From Ruminococcus sp. (lineage in GTDB: Bacteria; Bacillota; Clostridia; Oscillospirales; Ruminococcaceae): a stretch of 41,001 nucleotides of DNA. Shown here piece after piece: positions 8,410 through 26,809 of this stretch (positions are counted from its first letter, which is position 1; each line of letters begins with the position of its first letter). A model generated the notes under the pieces. The model was not told the DNA's origin. It did not search any database and was given only the letters and a program-made list of their open reading frames with translations. Location: contig JAFZRF010000069.1 in assembly GCA_017620025.1 (NCBI GenBank), forward strand, positions 1 to 41,001. Direction: 5' to 3'. The translations under genes and the position numbers were made by a program.

Positions 8410-9789
8410 TCATATATGCCTGAGCTGCTTGAGATCAAATCCTTCATCTTCCTGTACGTCGGGATTTTCCGGTACAGGAACAGCCTTTTCCGGTATCATC
8501 AGCTCTATCTGTAGAATGAATTCCGGTGAAGTTGAAGGTATGTTTACTCTTCCGTTGAGCGCCTTTACGGTGCGGCGGATATTGTAAAGACCGAAGCCGT
8601 GATTTTCCTTGTCAGCCTTTGAGGTCTTGTGGTTTGAGTCCTCCGATACCGACGGATTCTTTACCTGTATCAGCTGGATGCAGCCGTCAACGGAGCAGTC
8701 AACGCTTATAATGCGTACCTCCTCGCTCTCCGGCAGTCTCTGACAGGCCTCTATCGAGTTATCGAGCGCATTGGAGAGGATAGTACAGATATCAAAGGCG
8801 GAGATCCTGTCGGATATCACTCCGTTGAACTGGATATCGCAGTTATGTGCCCTTGCATTTCCGCACTTGTCGTTGAGTATCGCATCTGCTACGGAGTTTC
8901 CGCTGCGGAACGATCTCAGACTCCTTATGGTATGATCGGTGATGGAGCAGAGGTAATCCATCGCCTTGCTTGTCTCGTTGTTCTTGAGGAGGGTGTGCAG
9001 GCATATCATATGATTGCGGTAATCGTGCCTGAATTCCCTTACATCACGGTTGATCTGCTCGATCTTCTCGTAATGCTCGAGCTGGATGTTTACCTGCTTG
9101 TTGAGGAGCTGTGAGGTACTTTCAAAGTAGAATTTGGAGATGCAGTTCATCAGCATGAAGATCATTACTACAAGGGATGAAAGCACGGTCAGTGCGATCA
9201 GTACGCTCATTACCCTGTCTGATATCTCAACAGGGATCTCATTCTTTTTCTCCTCTATCTTTGTCTCAACTACGCACAGCGTACCGAGCAGTGCAAGAGA
9301 AACAATGAGAAGACTGTATATCTTTTTCGGGAGCAGCTTTACGCTGTATCGGATGCCGCTCTTGTGGTGCTTCCTCAGGTAGAGGACAACGCACAGGGTT
9401 ATGAGATTGAGTACGAGAGAGATGCTCTTGAGCAAAAGCTCTGTATTCGATATCGGGAAGGGCATCGCTTTAATGAGAAGGGTAAGAAGAGGGGATATCA
9501 CCGAATCTGTCAGCAGATAGATAAGAGTGATATACAGAGTCATGAATTTGCTGTCCCTGTGAACTGATAGCATTATTGCGAATAGTAGTAGGTAGAGGGT
9601 GAAAACGTTGAAGATGATGTTAGGATAGTAGGTGTATGCAATTGCGGTCGTTAAATAAAGCGCCGTAAGCATCCATGACAGCCTTGTGAACTTCCTTGTC
9701 TTGACAATTACATTTGTCAGCAAATGTATATTGACAATAAACAGGAAATAAACCGCCACACTGGGCAGTTTGGAAAGAAAGTGTTGCAT
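8410..9789 (-). CDS. AgrC-like GHKL sensor histidine kinase
   Basis: 459 residues. About the first 200 residues contain six or so hydrophobic segments (from MQHFLSKLPSVAVYFLFIV), the layout of peptide-sensing AgrC/ComD/FsrC-type kinases (HPK10). A dimerisation/phosphoacceptor region follows, with REFRHDYRNH and phospho-acceptor His255. The C-terminal GHKL ATPase shows the N box (NALDNSIEAC) and a GFGLYNIRR glycine motif. It lies 7 nt after the LytTR regulator and is surely co-transcribed with it. There is no agrB or agrD in the window; the only peptide gene nearby is the 11-residue ORF at 10760. Likely role: membrane sensor of an extracellular peptide. The ligand is unproven. Confidence 0.92.
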   Translation of the reverse strand: MQHFLSKLPSVAVYFLFIVNIHLLTNVIVKTRKFTRLSWMLTALYLTTAIAYTYYPNIIFNVFTLYLLLFAIMLSVHRDSKFMTLYITLIYLLTDSVISPLLTLLIKAMPFPISNTELLLKSISLVLNLITLCVVLYLRKHHKSGIRYSVKLLPKKIYSLLIVSLALLGTLCVVETKIEEKKNEIPVEISDRVMSVLIALTVLSSLVVMIFMLMNCISKFYFESTSQLLNKQVNIQLEHYEKIEQINRDVREFRHDYRNHMICLHTLLKNNETSKAMDYLCSITDHTIRSLRSFRSGNSVADAILNDKCGNARAHNCDIQFNGVISDRISAFDICTILSNALDNSIEACQRLPESEEVRIISVDCSVDGCIQLIQVKNPSVSEDSNHKTSKADKENHGFGLYNIRRTVKALNGRVNIPSTSPEFILQIELMIPEKAVPVPENPDVQEDEGFDLKQLRHI

Positions 9790-9796
9790 TTAGCCA

Positions 9797-10507
9797 TCAT
9801 CCTGTTCTGTTATTACGAATGTAATCATAGTATGTATTTTTGAAATCCTTGTACTTGAGCTTTGAGAGGAGGGCTTTCTGCCCGTTGCTCAAGGTTATCT
9901 CGCTCTTGCTGAATGAGCTTACATGACCGAGATTGATCAGGTATGAACGGTTGCTTCTGAAAAACAGACCGTCCGTGAGTTCCTGCTGGAGGGCGGAGAT
10001 ACTGTTCATGTATCTGAAGGTGCCTTCCTCTGTTATAACAAGTGCATAGATGTTTTCTGCCTGTACGTAGATGATATCTTTTTCCGGTATTACTATGCTG
10101 TTGCCGAATTCAGTGTCCTTTGCTATGATCTTGCGGGAAGAGCTGTCTTCACGCATAGCCGAATCGAGAGCCTCAAAGAGATCGTCCTTGTCTACCGGTT
10201 TCACAAGGAAACGGTAGGCGCTGTATTTCATTGTCTCAAATACGATCTCGGAATAACTGCTGACAAATACTATCCTTGTACCTATGCTGCGTGAACGCAG
10301 CTCCCTGATAGTGTCTATGCCGCTGACCTGGCTCATCTGCTGATCAAGGAAGATCATATCGAAGCTTTCCTTTGATGCGAGCAGCTCCGAGCCGTCAGAG
10401 AATTCGGTTATCTCTATTTCAGCGGAACGCAGCTTTGAGTATTCATTCAGCTTTTCAGTGAGTGCTTCTCTGAAGATCTTTTCGTCGTCACAAACTGCTA
10501 TTTTCAT
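9797..10507 (-). CDS. LytTR-family response regulator (AgrA-like)
   Basis: 236 residues starting MKIAVCDDE. The longer upstream frame (to 10660) was rejected because GGAGG lies about 5 nt before the 10507 ATG and the receiver domain begins there. The receiver (1-120) carries the acidic pair DD and phospho-acceptor D55 (MIFLDQQMS). The C-terminal LytTR DNA-binding domain (about 130-236) contains FFRSNRSYLINLGHV, typical of the family. It is the first gene of the kinase operon. LytTR regulators bind direct repeats about 21-22 bp apart, and such an array is found nearby at 10868-10955. Confidence 0.93.
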   Translation of the reverse strand: MKIAVCDDEKIFREALTEKLNEYSKLRSAEIEITEFSDGSELLASKESFDMIFLDQQMSQVSGIDTIRELRSRSIGTRIVFVSSYSEIVFETMKYSAYRFLVKPVDKDDLFEALDSAMREDSSSRKIIAKDTEFGNSIVIPEKDIIYVQAENIYALVITEEGTFRYMNSISALQQELTDGLFFRSNRSYLINLGHVSSFSKSEITLSNGQKALLSKLKYKDFKNTYYDYIRNNRTG

Positions 10508-10528
10508 ATATCCTCCGCAGTGATTGCA

Positions 10529-10569
10529 TTTCATCCGCAGACAGGCCGGTGATGTCCTGCCGGATGAAA
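10529..10569 (-). promoter_or_regulatory. 5' UTR hairpin of the two-component operon
   Basis: On the minus strand TTTCATCCG pairs with CGGATGAAA, with an inner GCAGG/CCTGT stem, about 20 nt upstream of the response-regulator start. It could affect translation or RNA stability. No known riboswitch is recognised. Confidence 0.45.
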
Positions 10570-10601
10570 AAATAAATAAAACATAAAAAGAGTCCAATAT
10601 A

Positions 10602-10630
10602 ATTATACTACATCTGAAGTCAAATTGCAA
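10602..10630 (-). promoter_or_regulatory. Promoter of the two-component operon
   Basis: TTGCAA, 17 nt, TATAAT on the minus strand, giving a leader of about 90 nt. The spacer carries tgacttcagatgt, which resembles the 22-bp repeat unit at 10868 read on the minus strand, so autoregulation is possible. Confidence 0.75.
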
Positions 10631-10678
10631 CAGTTTTTTGACTTTACAAGTTTTTTGCATATGCTGTCAAGAATAGAC

Positions 10679-10706
10679 TTGATTTTTCCGTATAATGGTA
10701 TATAAT
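10679..10706 (+). promoter_or_regulatory. Promoter of the 11-residue peptide gene
   Basis: TTGATT, 16 nt, TATAAT, with a second TATAAT-like box (10691-10696) inside the spacer. It is divergent from the two-component promoter, with about 50 bp between the -35 boxes. Confidence 0.75.
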
Positions 10707-10759
10707 ATTGATATAGGGTTTTTTATTGAGCAACAATAATCTGATGGAGGGTCAAAATT

Positions 10760-10795
10760 ATGATTTGGGATATTTTAAGCTGGTTCATGCCTTGA
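10760..10795 (+). CDS. 11-residue peptide MIWDILSWFMP, candidate signal
   Basis: Encodes MIWDILSWFMP and a TGA stop. GGAGGG lies 8 nt before the ATG, a sigma-A promoter lies upstream and an intrinsic terminator downstream, so it is the only translatable unit of a ~160-nt transcript. The peptide is hydrophobic and amphipathic, with two Trp spaced W-I/D-I-L-S-W, one acidic residue and a C-terminal Pro. There is no leader, no Cys or Ser-based thiolactone motif and no AgrB nearby, so it would not be a classical AgrD. Its divergent position beside an AgrC/LytTR pair makes it a good candidate pheromone or leaderless secreted peptide. No homologue is recalled. Confidence 0.7.
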   Translation: MIWDILSWFMP

Positions 10796-10838
10796 CAGCA
10801 AACGATTAGCTCTGCAATACAACAAACGATATAGCAAG

Positions 10839-10868
10839 AGATCCGGGTCGAACGATCCGGATCTTTTT
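10839..10868 (+). terminator. Terminator of the peptide gene
   Basis: AGATCCGG and CCGGATCT close a 10-nt loop and are followed by TTTTT. Confidence 0.88.
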
Positions 10869-10955
10869 GGTATAACATCTGTCATAAGTTGATATTACAT
10901 CTATCACGAAATGATATTAAATCTATCACAGGCTGTAATAACATTTATTTCATCA
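10868..10955 (+). repeat. Four tandem 22-bp repeats, candidate LytTR sites
   Basis: Four imperfect units of exactly 22 nt start at 10868, 10890, 10912 and 10934, with the core ataacatctgtcat, atattacatctatcac, atattaaatctatcac and aataacatttatttca. A 22-bp period places the cores on the same helix face, the spacing used by LytTR dimers. The array lies about 50 bp upstream of the promoter at 11003-11031 and downstream of the peptide terminator. Activation of the downstream RNA by the adjacent regulator is inferred. Confidence 0.7.
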
Positions 10956-11002
10956 GGGCTATGCAATTTACAAGAAAAAAACGGCCGTTGACAAGAATTC
11001 TA

Positions 11003-11031
11003 TTGACTCAGAGGCATATATACGCTAAAAT
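11003..11031 (+). promoter_or_regulatory. Promoter of the structured RNA
   Basis: TTGACT, 17 nt, TAAAAT. A further TTGACA lies at 10988-10993. The predicted start is near 11037, exactly where the first RNA hairpin begins. Confidence 0.75.
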
Positions 11032-11036
11032 GTAAT

Positions 11037-11538
11037 TGTCACCGGAGATAAGTCTCCGGGACAACTGCTCCGGCAAAACGGAGCGGTATCCTGATCTGAC
11101 ACGGGAGTCTTAGTACTACCCTTCACGATCCTACCAATACTTAACGGCAGACGTCCTTTATATTCCTGTTTCTGTTCATCCACCGGAAGCAGGTGCCCGT
11201 CACTGTGTAAGCTGTATCAACAACCCCGATATAGTGTCTGCCGTATGCCAGTAATCCAACTCTTACATCGCACCAATGACCGCTGCACATCTGATATAAG
11301 AGACCCGGTAATCAACCCACCAAACCCGTGATCAGGACAGGTACACCACTATACGCCGGACTACAACCGGACGATCATACTCCGCAACAGTCACACTACT
11401 ACGTCACACCAAGAGCTTTTTTCAATTCTTACTATACTTTCATTAAACTCTCCGTTTTTTGGCCGTTTTCAGTGTTTCGTCACAAACATCTGATACTGCG
11501 GCATCGCACTCTGCTCCGGAAGGCAGGGTGCTTTTTTT
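11037..11538 (+). ncRNA. ~500-nt structured RNA of unknown class
   Basis: About 590 nt (11037-11630) lack a credible gene. The segment contains H1 11036-11064 (ttgtc-ccggaga/tctccgg-gacaa), H2 11067-11084 (gctccg/cggagc), and a long-range 13-bp helix joining 11089-11095 plus 11100-11105 with 11325-11337. Inside this lie 11145-11152/11236-11243 (cggcagac/gtctgccg), 11165-11172/11186-11193, and 11260-11269/11293-11302 (9 of 10). It has its own promoter and an intrinsic terminator at 11506-11538. I see no tmRNA, RNase P, SRP or 6S signature. Position beside an Agr-like system recalls staphylococcal RNAIII, but no sequence likeness is claimed. It may instead belong to a large ornate RNA class. 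Confidence 0.7.
11506..11538 (+). terminator. Intrinsic terminator of the structured RNA
   Basis: GCACTCTGC pairs with GCAGGGTGC (one G-U pair) around an 8-nt loop and is followed by seven T. Confidence 0.9.
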
Positions 11539-11570
11539 GTGCCCCGAAAAGTGAAAAATATACTAAATAG

Positions 11571-11599
11571 TTGACCTGTTTGTGAAAAAGTGGTATAAT
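11571..11599 (+). promoter_or_regulatory. Promoter of the LRR-transglutaminase operon
   Basis: TTGACC, 17 nt, TATAAT, about 30 nt before the start codon. This separates the structured RNA from the next gene, so the RNA is not simply a leader. Confidence 0.85.
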
Positions 11600-11630
11600 A
11601 TTAACATCATCAAACGGGAGGGACATAACC

Positions 11631-14159
11631 ATGAAAATCATTAAAAGAACACTGTCAGCGGCAGTGTCTGCCGTGATGACCCTTACTTCAGCAGCTGGGA
11701 GCGGTATTTTCATATCATCCGCTACAGAACAGTTCCCGGCAGGCGTTTATAAGGACGAATACGGATTATGGGATTATTATACGATAACAGAAGGAGATTT
11801 TTTATTCGGTCTCCGTACTAATATGGGAGTACCTGCTTCATTGGCTGATGACCGTTATAAATACGATGATATAGGTGACTGCCCGAGACGTGACGACGAG
11901 CTTGTGCTGCTCGAATACAACGGCAGTGACAAGGATGTAGTTGTTCCGGATACGGTCGACGGAAGAAAGGTAACAGCGCTCGGAGCAAATGCCTTTTCCG
12001 AGAAGAAAAAAATAGATTCCGTAACGCTTCCGGATCAGATAGACTTTATAGCCGGAAAAGCCTTCTTTATGTCAACGGTGAAAAAGATCAATATCCCGGA
12101 GGCTGTGAAGATCATCCCTGAGGATATGTGTTACGGGTGCATTCTTCTGGAGGAAGCAGAAGGCCTTGATCATGTCTGGCTGTGCTCCGACAACGCCTTT
12201 TACGGAACGGATGTCACGCTGCCGGAGGGTGTTCTGACGTGCGAGGATATAAACACCTTCTCCGGTTATATTGACAGCTCACTTCCTTCGTTTGTGAGCG
12301 GAAGTTATGAAGACTGGGATTTTCATATTGAGTGGAACGGCGGGAATTTCGACGTAATCATAACGGAACTGCCGATGAGTACAGGAGCCGGTATCACTGC
12401 AGACGGCAAAAAAAGAACGGTAGTGTTCCCGGAAAAGTTCGGCAGGATCCCCGTGAACGGATGCCGTGCCTACAGGAATATTTCAGGCGAAGAGATAACC
12501 TATATCTTCCCTGAGAGCTATGATGACATATATATGGACTTCAGCACTTACCGGATAGCAGCCGTTGAGTTCAGAAACAAGGACGCCAGATTCGAGGGCT
12601 CCTTTGCAGGCTCCTCGATATCGGAGATAACTCTTCCCTCAAATACTGTGTACACTGCAAAGATGTTTGATGGCTGCAAGAAGCTGAAAAGCTTTGAGGC
12701 GGCCGAAGGCACAGAGAAAGCAGAGCTGTCTTACCGCTTCTTTGCTGACTGCGGCGCTCTTGAGACAGTGACCGTTCCGGAAAGCTGCGGGAAGATCAGT
12801 ATAGGCTCCGAGGCTTTTTCCGGAGATACGGCGCTGAAAACGGTCAATATCCCGGATACCGTCTGCGTTACCGGAATTGATGATAAAGCATTCTCCGGCT
12901 GCTCATCGCTTGAAAGCCTTTCTGTACCGAAGAGCGGCGTGGAACAGTTTTCCATAGGCAGGGAGGCATTCAAGGACTGCGAAAAGCTCAGCTCTGTAGT
13001 ATTTCCTGACGACTGCAAAAGACTGATAATAAGCGGCAGCGCATTCAAGGACTGCACCGCCCTTGCCAGGGCGGAACTGCCTGATGTTGCCGAGGTGCAT
13101 ATAGATAACTACGCCTTTTCCGGTACTCCCATAACCTCACTTAAAGCTGAGAGCGGCTGGAGCATCGGTTCAAATGCTTTCATGGACTGCGATCAGCTCA
13201 GCGAGGTCAGTATCAACGGCGCAGATGTAGGCATAAGTGCTTTCATGCGCTGCGATGCACTCAAAAAGCTCACAGTCAGCGGTGCGGCAAAGCTGAACAA
13301 GGATGCCTTCAAAGGATGCACCTCTCTTGAAGATATAAAGCTCATCGGAAGCGGATACAGCATCAGCAACTCTTTCGATGACTGCCGGAACCTTATGAAG
13401 ATAAACGGCAAGACCGTATTTGACAGCAAGACGGGCGATCTCACACCGGATCTGAAACCCATTGTAATGGAGAGCTTTGCCTCCGACGACAATATAGGTT
13501 TCCTCAACGAGTACGTGCTGTATCATGTGAAGAAGACCATATCGGAGATAATTGAGCCTGACATGACCGATATGGAAAAGATCAGAACGATACACGACTG
13601 GGTATGTGCCAACGCCAAGTATACCGATAAGGATGACAGCGGCCTCACCGATCATAATGACGCTTCGCTGTTCCTTCTGCCGACAACAGTATGCGACGGC
13701 TACTCAAGGGCGTTCAATCTCCTTGCACATGAAGCAGGTATAGAGACCTGTGTAGTTGACAGCATAGACCACTCATGGAACATCGTAAAGATAGGCGGAC
13801 TGTATTTCCATATCGATACCACATGGGATGACGGCGATACGATCGGCCGCAGCTGGTTCTTAAGGAGCGACCGGGAAATGAAGGATGCCGGCGGTTCTCA
13901 TGCAAGATGGACTCTTGACTGTCCGTCCGCCCTGCACAGCTTCCAGAAGGATACGCTCCCGGAGTGCAGCCGTTCAATGGGCGATGCAAACAGCGACGGA
14001 GCAATAAACACCGCCGATCTTGTCCTGTTCAGCAAATACCTCCTCGGAGGCAGCAAGCTGACCGGTGACGATCAGACGGTATGCGATCTCAACTTTGACG
14101 GCTGTGCGGATACATTCGATATCGTCATGTTCCGCAGACAGCTCACATCCGACACATGA
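11631..14159 (+). CDS. Secreted LRR (BspA-type) transglutaminase-like dockerin protein
   Basis: 842 residues with GGGAGGG before the ATG and a signal peptide (about 1-33). Residues about 95-600 are LRR_5/BspA-type repeats (units such as VTLPDQIDFIAGKAF, then INIPEAVKII). A transglutaminase-like domain follows (about 630-745), with the full triad C688 (VCDGYSRAF), H714 (DHSWNIVK) and D729 (DTTWDD). The dockerin is at 784-842 (GDANSDGAINTADLV, DLNFDGCADTFD). The domain could act as a cysteine protease, crosslinker or amidase on cell-surface or plant proteins. It is first in an operon with a close paralogue 27 nt downstream. Confidence 0.9.
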   Translation: MKIIKRTLSAAVSAVMTLTSAAGSGIFISSATEQFPAGVYKDEYGLWDYYTITEGDFLFGLRTNMGVPASLADDRYKYDDIGDCPRRDDELVLLEYNGSDKDVVVPDTVDGRKVTALGANAFSEKKKIDSVTLPDQIDFIAGKAFFMSTVKKINIPEAVKIIPEDMCYGCILLEEAEGLDHVWLCSDNAFYGTDVTLPEGVLTCEDINTFSGYIDSSLPSFVSGSYEDWDFHIEWNGGNFDVIITELPMSTGAGITADGKKRTVVFPEKFGRIPVNGCRAYRNISGEEITYIFPESYDDIYMDFSTYRIAAVEFRNKDARFEGSFAGSSISEITLPSNTVYTAKMFDGCKKLKSFEAAEGTEKAELSYRFFADCGALETVTVPESCGKISIGSEAFSGDTALKTVNIPDTVCVTGIDDKAFSGCSSLESLSVPKSGVEQFSIGREAFKDCEKLSSVVFPDDCKRLIISGSAFKDCTALARAELPDVAEVHIDNYAFSGTPITSLKAESGWSIGSNAFMDCDQLSEVSINGADVGISAFMRCDALKKLTVSGAAKLNKDAFKGCTSLEDIKLIGSGYSISNSFDDCRNLMKINGKTVFDSKTGDLTPDLKPIVMESFASDDNIGFLNEYVLYHVKKTISEIIEPDMTDMEKIRTIHDWVCANAKYTDKDDSGLTDHNDASLFLLPTTVCDGYSRAFNLLAHEAGIETCVVDSIDHSWNIVKIGGLYFHIDTTWDDGDTIGRSWFLRSDREMKDAGGSHARWTLDCPSALHSFQKDTLPECSRSMGDANSDGAINTADLVLFSKYLLGGSKLTGDDQTVCDLNFDGCADTFDIVMFRRQLTSDT

Positions 14160-14186
14160 TAAATACATAATGAGAGGGACCTGGAT

Positions 14187-16202
14187 ATGAAAAAGTTAAG
14201 AAAAGGAACAACAGCGGCAGTCTCTGCCGTGCTGGCGGTTACCGCCTCCGGCAGCAGCCTGTCTGCTTCTGCTGTACTGAGTCCGTCTGAGCCTGAAGGC
14301 TATATAGACGGCTGGGGATATGCTGAGGAGACTCTATACATTGATGACGGCTATAATTATTACGAGAGCGGAAAGATTTATGAGATCGTTTCTGTGCCGG
14401 AGGAACTGGTAAACAAGGACGAAGAGGTAACACTCGTTCTGCCGGAGAAGCTCGGGGATATGGATATCGAAGGCTGTGAGATAGAACTGTGCTATATGAA
14501 AGGCCAGGTAAATATCGTTTTCCCGGAAAGCTATAAAAGAATCATCGCCGGACTGTCAAACAAGGGCATAAAAAGCGTGGAGTTCCGCAATAAGGATGTG
14601 TTTATAAATTTTCTTGATTTAGCAGGCTCCTCCATTGCTGAGATAACTCTTCCGTCAAATACAGAATTTGGCGACAGTATGTTCCGTAGCTGCAGGCAGC
14701 TGAAAAGCTTTACATATCCGGATAAAGCTGAATACTGTGCATTGCCTTACCGGTGTTTTGAAAACTGCGAAAAGCTTGAGAAGGTCGTGCTTCCGGAAGA
14801 TGCTGCCATCGGATATATAGGTGAGTATGCATTTATGAATGACAGGATGCTGAAGGAACTTATCCTGCCGTCTGACGTTTACCATTATGAAGATGATGAT
14901 GGTAACATAGTATTTAACATAGGAGATAGCGCATTTCAGAATTGTTCATCGCTCGGCAGTCTGATCATACCCGCAGATTCTGAAACAGACATCATCGTAG
15001 AAAATGAAGCCTTTTCAGGCTGCGAGAGCCTGAAAAATATTGCTTTCAGCCGGAGCGCAAAGAGCCTTAAATTCGGCAGCAGAGTATTCGCCGGCTGCGG
15101 CAGCTTTGACACTCTTGATATCCCCGACGGCACCGGCAGTATCACGTTAGGCGAAAAAGCGCTAAGCGGAACGGCTGTGACCTCCCTCAACGCAGATTCA
15201 AGGTGGGACATAGGAGACTCTGCCTTCGCTGAATGCAATGCACTGAAGGATATCACCCTTGACGGCGCAAAGGCCGGCGAGAATGCCTTCCGTGGCTGTG
15301 AAGCACTTGAGAACGTAACAGTTGACAGCGGCGCAGTACTCAGTGAGTCAGCCGTAAGCCTGTGCCCCGCACTGAAAAATATTGATATCAGGGACTCCGG
15401 CGTCGTGATGAACGGCGCATTCAATGACTGCCCCGCACTTATGACAATAAACGGTAAACCGGTTTTCGACAGCAGTACCGGAGAGCTTGCCCCCGGCATG
15501 AAGGATATCATCAGAGCAAACTTCGCCGCCTCTGATAATATCGGTTTCCTCAACGAGTATGTCAGTCAGCAGGTGAAGAAGACGGTATCGGAGATAATAA
15601 CGCCGGACATGAACGATATGCAGAAGACGAGGGCCGTGCATGACTGGCTGTGCGAGAATACCGTCTATGCCACAGAGGAGGAGCAGGGCTTCAGAGACCT
15701 CAGCGATGCTTCTGTATTCCTGCTGGATTCCACGACCGGTGAAGGCTATGCAAGAGTATTCAATCTCCTTGCACACGAAGCCGGACTCGAGACCTGTATC
15801 GTCAGCAGCGAGACACACAGCTGGAATATTGTAAAGATAGGCGGTCTTTACTTCCATGTCGATACCACATGGGACGATCTTCTCGACAGCCATAAATGGT
15901 TCCTTAAGACCGACAGCGAAACCTACGACGCAGGCGGCCGCCACAAGAACTGGAAGCTGTGCCGTCCGTCGGTCTTCCATGAATTCCAGAGCGAAGAGCT
16001 CCCGGAGTGCAGACGTTCAATGGGCGATGCCAATAACGACGGCAGGATCAATACCGCCGACCTTGTGGCATTCAGCAGATATCTCCTCGGCAGCGGTGAG
16101 CTTGAAGAGGATGATGTCACCGTATGTGACCTGAATTTCGACGGCTCCGCTGATACCTTCGATACAGTCGCTTTCCGTAATAAACTGACGTCGGCGCTGT
16201 GA
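14187..16202 (+). CDS. Secreted LRR dockerin protein with inactive transglutaminase-like domain
   Basis: 671 residues, paralogue of the preceding gene: signal peptide (about 1-30), LRR_5 repeats, a transglutaminase-like fold (about 470-575) and a dockerin (613-671, GDANNDGRINTADLV). In the aligned active-site segment TTVCDGYSRAF becomes STTGEGYARVF, so the catalytic Cys is Gly518, whereas H544 (ETHSWNIV) and D559 (DTTWDD) remain. It should lack thiol catalysis and may serve as a binding or regulatory partner. It also has a shorter N-terminal part than its neighbour. The pair probably arose by tandem duplication. Confidence 0.88.
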   Translation: MKKLRKGTTAAVSAVLAVTASGSSLSASAVLSPSEPEGYIDGWGYAEETLYIDDGYNYYESGKIYEIVSVPEELVNKDEEVTLVLPEKLGDMDIEGCEIELCYMKGQVNIVFPESYKRIIAGLSNKGIKSVEFRNKDVFINFLDLAGSSIAEITLPSNTEFGDSMFRSCRQLKSFTYPDKAEYCALPYRCFENCEKLEKVVLPEDAAIGYIGEYAFMNDRMLKELILPSDVYHYEDDDGNIVFNIGDSAFQNCSSLGSLIIPADSETDIIVENEAFSGCESLKNIAFSRSAKSLKFGSRVFAGCGSFDTLDIPDGTGSITLGEKALSGTAVTSLNADSRWDIGDSAFAECNALKDITLDGAKAGENAFRGCEALENVTVDSGAVLSESAVSLCPALKNIDIRDSGVVMNGAFNDCPALMTINGKPVFDSSTGELAPGMKDIIRANFAASDNIGFLNEYVSQQVKKTVSEIITPDMNDMQKTRAVHDWLCENTVYATEEEQGFRDLSDASVFLLDSTTGEGYARVFNLLAHEAGLETCIVSSETHSWNIVKIGGLYFHVDTTWDDLLDSHKWFLKTDSETYDAGGRHKNWKLCRPSVFHEFQSEELPECRRSMGDANNDGRINTADLVAFSRYLLGSGELEEDDVTVCDLNFDGSADTFDTVAFRNKLTSAL

Positions 16203-26730: not shown

Positions 26731-26809
26731 TGGTACCCGCAGCGAGATTCGAACTCGCAAAAACCTGCTTCTTAGGCAGGGATGTATGCCAAAATTCCAT
26801 CATGCGGGC
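26731..26809 (-). tRNA. Short tRNA with AAG (Leu) anticodon
   Basis: 79 nt with CCA, acceptor GCCCGCA/TGCGGGT, large D loop (gatggaattttggcatac), anticodon loop ctaagaa, perfect T stem gcgag/ctcgc and a five-T variable loop. A34 with a Leu anticodon and a type I variable loop is unusual in bacteria. Only 3 nt separate it from the previous tRNA. Confidence 0.75.

Follow-up and report, generated by a model that had tools for sequence, protein, structure and literature searches.

We analysed a stretch of 41,001 nucleotides from Ruminococcus sp. (contig JAFZRF010000069.1, hereafter the window), in which the genes of an AgrC-type sensor kinase and a LytTR response regulator lie divergently from an 11-codon micropeptide gene and a structured RNA of about 500 nt. 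For peptides that signal through membrane kinases, a leader and either a dedicated processing exporter such as AgrB or a double-glycine transporter are generally regarded as necessary. The agr precursor AgrD carries a leader, a ring-forming Cys or Ser, and a charged tail, and RNAIII is the large structured RNA output of staphylococcal agr. The agr promoters P2 and P3 carry paired direct repeats, at the signal promoter and at the RNA promoter (PMC4227749). We propose that the locus in the window is an autoregulated peptide-signalling locus, in which the micropeptide would be sensed by the AgrC-type kinase and the regulator would drive both the peptide gene and the RNA. Judging from the sequence, we consider this likely.

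Two further systems are similar to parts of this locus. The LCP/SIP-RopB systems of Firmicutes have an ultrasmall open reading frame (ORF), divergent from the receptor gene, whose peptide product is mature as translated, has no leader, and is rich in aromatic and aliphatic residues; the LCP of Streptococcus salivarius is located beside a biosynthetic cluster (PMC10518010). In Clostridioides difficile, RgaR of the RgaS-RgaR system activates the SpoZ RNA and agrB1D1 via direct repeats, with key G residues at -51 and -72 of spoZ, 21 bp apart. RgaS and RgaR are orphan genes, RgaS does not read AgrD1, and one of the RgaR targets is the small ORF CD15111 (PMC10602386).

The locus of the window is similar to staphylococcal agr in its GHKL kinase and LytTR regulator, and also in a putative large structured RNA output and in the predicted paired direct repeats at the signal and RNA promoters (PMC4227749). 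Unlike in agr, no AgrB was found, the peptide has no AgrD-like leader or ring-forming Cys, the peptide and RNA promoters are arranged in tandem, and the RNA matches no Rfam family. With LCP-RopB it shares a leaderless micro-ORF divergent from the gene of a receptor, a role here presumably played by the kinase; the receptor there is the regulator RopB, which is Rgg-related, whereas here a membrane AgrC-type GHKL kinase would work together with a LytTR protein. A word search of that paper returned nothing for histidine kinase, two-component, Ruminococc, or Clostridia (PMC10518010). The AgrC/VirS-type kinase, VirR-type regulator, small RNA, and 21-bp spacing are reminiscent of RgaSR and of VirSR of Clostridium perfringens, while no paired micropeptide is seen for RgaSR in the available portion of the source (PMC10602386). 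We regard LCP-RopB as the nearest idea for the peptide arm, with a differing receptor type, and RgaSR-SpoZ as the nearest for the RNA arm. Such peptides were not seen in the available parts of a review on quorum sensing through two-component systems (PMC8895600) or of a survey of rumen bacteriocins (PMC13289728). In the literature covered, which was chiefly open access and did not include bioRxiv, no prior description was found for these bacteria of a histidine kinase with a micropeptide partner.

The kinase gene (8410..9789, minus strand) encodes 459 aa, with about six predicted N-terminal membrane segments; six hydrophobic peaks were detected. Profile searches matched HATPase_c_5 (2.1e-22) and, below the cut-off, SPOB_a (2e-4); the score against the NCBIfam profile of staphylococcal AgrC was 25.6 bits (cut-off 500), and a viral sequence collection gave no match to the kinase. 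The regulator (9797..10507, minus strand, 236 aa) matched Response_reg (1.6e-18) and LytTR (3e-17). These results bear out the presence of a GHKL kinase and a LytTR regulator, the former called AgrC-like in a preliminary description of this DNA, the span of which (9797..11538) excludes the kinase gene. That description also held that no agrB exists here, and AgrB (PF04647) indeed had no match in the assembly holding the locus (G000; 2.7 Mb, 75.9% complete), of which the window is contig C19. AgrB matches above the cut-off were present in 58 of 125 genomes of the genus. The locus was not filed as agr because no AgrB was found in G000 and the peptide is devoid of AgrD features.

The micropeptide gene (10760..10795, plus strand) encodes MIWDILSWFMP, 11 residues without Cys, leader, or tail. 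It is preceded by a Shine-Dalgarno sequence (GGAGGG, 10746-10751) and by a predicted promoter (TTGATT-16-TATAAT, 10679..10706, plus strand, from a pattern scan). A strong terminator-like hairpin with a T-run follows (about 10838..10868, plus strand), which is absent from the list of the pattern scan. The nearest relatives of the assembly are Ruminococcus metagenome-assembled genomes (MAGs), and the sole close relative of the whole locus found was contig C3 of an uncultured Ruminococcus MAG (G133, locus L032), in which the kinase is 80% and the regulator 91% identical. The micropeptide of this sister species is MFIWDILNWFI. The leader of the peptide gene is 98% identical over 49 nt, both promoter hexamers are kept, and so are the peptide frame and the hairpin, with the same stem and a changed loop. 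The divergent peptide gene of the preliminary description, with its Shine-Dalgarno sequence and promoter-like site, is kept in G133; its translation is supported at the level of sequence, and the product is probably leaderless, Trp-rich, and hydrophobic.

The pairing of a micropeptide gene with such a kinase recurs among relatives. We collected 148 distinct regulators, 145 of them with at least 400 nt upstream, and under a strict rule counted ATG ORFs of 6-20 codons that had a Shine-Dalgarno match and lay within 450 nt of the regulator start. In 43 related loci (Ruminococcus-type, with a regulator at least 33% identical to that of the window; the type was set by locus number and takes in a few MAGs under other names), a tiny ORF was divergent in 22 and codirectional in 3, against a shuffle mean of 2.1 (maximum 5 in 20 rounds). 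Trp occurred in 21 of these 22 divergent ORFs, which is the unbiased figure for this residue. Among 36 more distant Ruminococcus-type loci the counts were 4 divergent and 1 codirectional (shuffle mean 1.9), and among 66 other loci they were 5 and 3 (shuffle mean 2.6). As a control, an AgrB match was present by coordinates in 15 of 40 fetched stretches; among these 15, only L162 had a divergent ORF, and it contained no Trp. Conversely, AgrB was not listed for eight genomes that have a Trp micro-ORF locus (G012, G024, G034, G061, G069, G074, G076, and G077).

Micro-ORFs also adjoin kinases outside the genus and the family. We searched 295 genomes of the order with a profile built from 26 kinases (A1), and in the eight best-scoring genomes outside the genus, with one locus each, a Trp micro-ORF was found in seven (L203-L207, L209, L210). 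The eighth locus (L208) had no convincing ORF, and none was accepted from weaker-scoring loci. For the loci outside the genus, ORFs beside stretch ends were left out (L206 codirectional, the first row of L207, L213, L224), and further divergent ORFs in L205, L207, and L209 were left uncounted. Six loci (L008, L010, L014, L017, L021, L023) were added under a looser rule, with a weaker Shine-Dalgarno match, greater distance, and Trp required, under which the strict-rule ORF of L011 was also swapped for MIWDILRSLFGRP; the figure of 22 of 43 is unaffected by any addition. Examples of the peptides are MFWDIFKKIFG (G069), MIWDILRSLFGRP (G095, G012), MWDWLFG, MIWEWIFG, MGDFLDWLFGGRR, MTWSTIIDFLFG, MGGFWDFIFGR, and MWRYIWQIIFKK. 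Codirectional ORFs were also seen at L036 and L146. That of L146 (G135:C114) has 26 codons, reads MFLCNVVACANFDWVWEWLFGNGSGN, lies before a regulator 57% identical to that of the window, and may be a longer precursor containing a Trp core.

Trp is present in all 33 distinct peptides, which is partly due to the looser, Trp-requiring rule. F, W, and Y together make up 30% of their residues (F 13.9%, W 13.2%, with I at 12.9% and G at 11.4%), Cys occurs in 4 of the 33, and the shortest have 7 residues (MWDWLFG). Among related peptides, 19 codon changes were synonymous and 9 were not (10 hand-chosen, non-independent pairs). In the kinase tree, the window pairs with G133 (100/100) and is joined next by G069 (96/93) and, less firmly, by Ruminococcus albus and its kin (81/58). 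Peptide similarity tracks kinase kinship in the sensor half (Spearman 0.23, p 0.0014, 22 loci). A short ORF rich in Trp with a terminator-like hairpin behind it, as seen in the G000/G133 pair, could also encode a leader peptide (an attenuator or upstream ORF), the translation of which, for example under Trp starvation, would control transcription past the hairpin. We consider this very unlikely, because no cistron is seen from the hairpin to the RNA's own promoter, the distance between ORF and hairpin varies from about 42 nt here to less than 10 nt in G133, quite different genes lie downstream of the ORF in relatives, and Trp is just one among the recurrent residues.

The genes next to the micropeptide differ between relatives. 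In G069 (L259:3536-3733), a 65-aa thiazolylpeptide precursor (NF033400, 5.5e-15) directly follows the MFWDIFKKIFG gene, and the two ORFs after it read, by eye, like an ABC transporter and a permease. The tiny Trp ORF of R. albus, located after the kinase (MKDEKGWPWWF at L033:4822-4857; MWERIWGKGGGH, with WGK, at L035:7260-7298), has two radical-SAM/SPASM genes downstream. RaS-RiPPs such as streptide carry a WGK motif, and the R. albus arrangement is similar to theirs; it differs in that the peptides are very short and control seemingly runs via LytTR sites, not Rgg. It is possible that the R. albus peptide is a very short RaS-RiPP doubling as a signal. None of the four window genes profiled was a radical-SAM gene. 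G095 has a 428-codon gene beside the module, the G012 counterpart of which matches DUF6271, and two weakly kinase-like genes, and L043 has a DUF5085-like gene (6.6e-5, below the cut-off). In L014, L018, L039, L043, L045, and L048, a gene of about 150 codons follows within about 20 bases of the micropeptide ORF, as if in one operon.

Peptide, kinase, and regulator are thus the constant part of the module, with an output that changes between relatives. This constancy amid varying cargo is our main argument that the peptide would be the signal of the kinase and not just one of the products. Alternatively, the micropeptide might be an effector, a leaderless membrane-active or antimicrobial peptide of the PSM-like kind placed under two-component control, with the kinase sensing something else. 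The hydrophobic, aromatic composition of the peptides, the repeats at the peptide promoter, and the bacteriocin-type cargo nearby in G069 would agree with such a role. We nevertheless hold it to be unlikely, given that the kinase is the constant partner while the cargo varies, that G069 has a separate thiazolylpeptide precursor after the peptide gene, and that lengths down to 7 residues are short for a membrane-active peptide.

The peptide and RNA promoters carry the same type of paired site, with half-sites 21 bp apart, lying 7 nt upstream of the -35 box. The site of the peptide gene is TTACAAG-N14-TGTCAAG (10644..10671, plus strand). That of the RNA is TTACAAG-N14-TGACAAG (10968..10995, plus strand), before a predicted promoter (TTGACT-17-TAAAAT, 11003..11031, plus strand, pattern scan) whose hexamers are kept in G133 with a changed spacer. 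An extended motif derived from these two sites, TKWCAAG-N14-TKWCAAG-N7-TTGA, has exactly three matches without mismatch in G000, at the two promoters and at C51:28372-28410(-) (L252), and the latter is the sole independent one because of this derivation. The chance expectation of the exact motif is about 0.001, a rough estimate with equal base frequencies. The C51 site is followed by TTGACA and TATAAT, by a leader of about 200 nt without an evident ORF, and by a gene that, judging from its first residues, we take to be merR-like. In the orthologous region of G133 (C55, 73% identical) the promoter is kept and the site lies in the same place with two mismatches, while the G133 sites at the peptide and RNA promoters have one and none. 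With up to two mismatches allowed, G000 has 14 matches (reversed control 3). A shorter pattern, minus the -35 part, has 8 exact matches in G000, of which 6 are outside the locus and 4 of these inside ORFs of at least 100 codons; the other two are on C51 and C57.

Repeats with this spacing also occur in relatives. Before the tiny-peptide ORF of R. albus (L033, L035) we noted by eye ATTCACAAA-N12-CTTTACAAG, with a 21-bp spacing as in the window. With a spacing of 21, repeats matching at 8/9 or better precede 14 of the 33 distinct peptides, against 0-2 at the other spacings from 12 to 30 and 0.7 at 21 in shuffles (maximum 3). The common half-site across the peptide family, again by eye, is GTTYACTCC. 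Two loci (L013, L015) have two copies each of the MGGFWDFIFGR ORF, with more half-site repeats after the first copy. The preliminary description had assigned regulation to another element, a 22-bp-periodic array (10868..10955, plus strand). This array is real in the window, with a 67% self-match at shift 22, reached at any shift in 0 of 2000 mononucleotide shuffles; Tandem Repeats Finder listed nothing at these positions. Its units are ACATCTRTCAC-like, with a period near that of the LytTR site and letters unlike the conserved site. The array is absent as such in G133 (33% identity over 10872-10955) and was rejected as a conserved regulator element, and the likely regulator sites are instead the two paired sites at 10644-10671 and 10968-10995.

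The apparently non-coding RNA (11037..11538, plus strand, start predicted) has at its end an intrinsic terminator, whose stem spans 11506-11531 and is followed by T7. It is 91.0% identical to its G133 counterpart over 502 nt, with 76% in a variable part (11241-11345) and about 95% in the remainder, while the spacer downstream is 70% identical. Identity at four-fold degenerate sites is 53.7% in the regulator (n=80), 54.8% in the kinase (n=157), and 44.2% in the gene downstream of the RNA (n=206); the RNA, being so much more conserved than these sites, is therefore under strong constraint. Its predicted fold is plausible (-143.9 kcal/mol, z -3.71, bettered by 0 of 100 shuffles). No ATG ORF of at least 10 codons within the RNA is common to G000 and G133; at the 5′ end, a single TTG frame lacking a Shine-Dalgarno sequence is common to both for about 16 codons, after which the ends differ. 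The promoter-like site and the gene-free RNA with a predicted fold in the preliminary description thus stand. A known RNA family was rejected, as Rfam at the gathering score yields only tRNAs in the window, and a search of 10600-11640 relaxed to E values of up to 5 gave nothing credible. Rfam also gives a seventh tRNA at 26734-26809 that is not on the ARAGORN list.

The RNA is rare and was found in two genomes, unlike the pairing of peptide and kinase. Among the matches listed for the 125 genus genomes, with at most 5 candidates scored per genome, full-length matches are in G000 and G133 only, and other matches at E up to 1 span 17-41 nt. A search of 297 family genomes, with 2 candidates scored per genome, gave three short matches of 22-40 nt besides G000; G133 was not among the matches and was taken as outside the sample. 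In 60 relatives, the RNA was found in G000 alone. Of the four-part arrangement in the preliminary description, the peptide and the RNA beside the two-component genes recur in G133 and the 22-bp repeats do not. In the wider genus, the peptide-kinase pairing, which that description had missed, recurs (22 of 43 loci), and the RNA does not extend beyond these two genomes among the matches listed.

The gene downstream of the RNA encodes LRR_5, transglutaminase, and dockerin domains (Pfam), and the same gene type follows the RNA in both species, as would be expected if the RNA acted in cis on this gene, as its leader or control region, and not in trans. This explanation is rather unlikely in view of the intrinsic terminator (11506-11538) and of a separate promoter-like site (TTGACC-17-TATAAT, 11571..11599, plus strand, pattern scan), which is also present in G133. 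Moreover, the gene product is 56% identical to its G133 counterpart, compared with 91% for the DNA of the RNA. Two ORFs with similar ends, of 842 and 671 codons, stand in tandem here (window 11631-16202), this gene being the first. A small hydrophobic peptide adjoining a structured RNA might also suggest a type I toxin-antitoxin system, with the micropeptide as toxin and the RNA as antitoxin. We judge this extremely improbable, since in neither species does the complementarity between RNA and peptide mRNA exceed that of mononucleotide shuffles (z -0.33, -0.87), no RNA match is among those listed for other genus genomes with peptide loci, and one site type is common to both promoters. An antisense role of the RNA, towards either the peptide mRNA or the start regions of four genes nearby, was likewise rejected, with z values between -1.67 and 0.03 relative to mononucleotide shuffles.

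In the signalling mechanism that we propose, the 11-codon gene would make the leaderless, Trp-rich, hydrophobic MIWDILSWFMP, which would be exported and sensed outside the cell by the divergently encoded AgrC-type kinase, as the recurrent pairing suggests. The kinase would phosphorylate the LytTR regulator, as expected for this family, and the regulator may then bind the two TKWCAAG half-sites at three promoters. Its targets would be the peptide's own promoter, giving positive feedback, the promoter of the RNA of about 500 nt, and the promoter before the merR-like gene elsewhere in the genome. The RNA would be the main local output, a regulatory RNA like RNAIII of Staphylococcus aureus or SpoZ of C. 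difficile, a role suggested by its strong conservation, its fold, and the lack of a conserved ATG ORF.

Several observations weigh against this proposal. No exporter for the micropeptide was identified, and G133 has two AgrB matches, both on contigs other than the locus contig. The sister peptide has only 8 residues in common with MIWDILSWFMP, with one gap, and the ORF DNA is 69% identical (computed over 10761-10796, one base past the ORF), below the leader preceding it. Under the strict rule, 21 of the 43 related loci have no divergent ORF; some ORFs were later found by eye and others were not (L034, L037). The catalytic half of the kinase correlates with the peptides nearly as well as the sensor half (0.20, p 0.008, 22 loci), so that no sensor-specific co-evolution is shown. 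G133 has 18 motif sites at up to two mismatches (reversed control 5), and its merR site therefore counts solely by its orthologous place. The locus's own pair of half-sites is more divergent, scoring 6/9 in the generic repeat test, below the 8/9 cut. Finally, the RNA is found in two genomes only, and a two-sided change was seen in 1 of 117 predicted RNA pairs when the two sequences were compared, so its structure is hardly tested.

We lean, with somewhat less confidence than for the locus itself, towards the existence of a broad, as yet undescribed class across Oscillospirales, in which leaderless Trp-rich micropeptides (7-24 residues) would work with AgrC-family kinases and LytTR feedback without AgrB. 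Its outputs would be interchangeable and would include bacteriocin-type clusters, peptides modified by radical-SAM enzymes, and DUF5085-like operons; one lineage would have independently evolved an RNAIII-like RNA of 500 nt. The RNA would add another, unrelated example of a quorum-type regulator that acts through a large regulatory RNA. If peptides of 7-15 residues are made directly in their final form and pair with AgrC-type kinases, the ligand of a gut kinase that has no known signal may be encoded within a few hundred bases of it, in an ORF so short that it was overlooked. For many receptors of rumen and gut Ruminococcus and their relatives, the ligands would then become testable with synthetic peptides.

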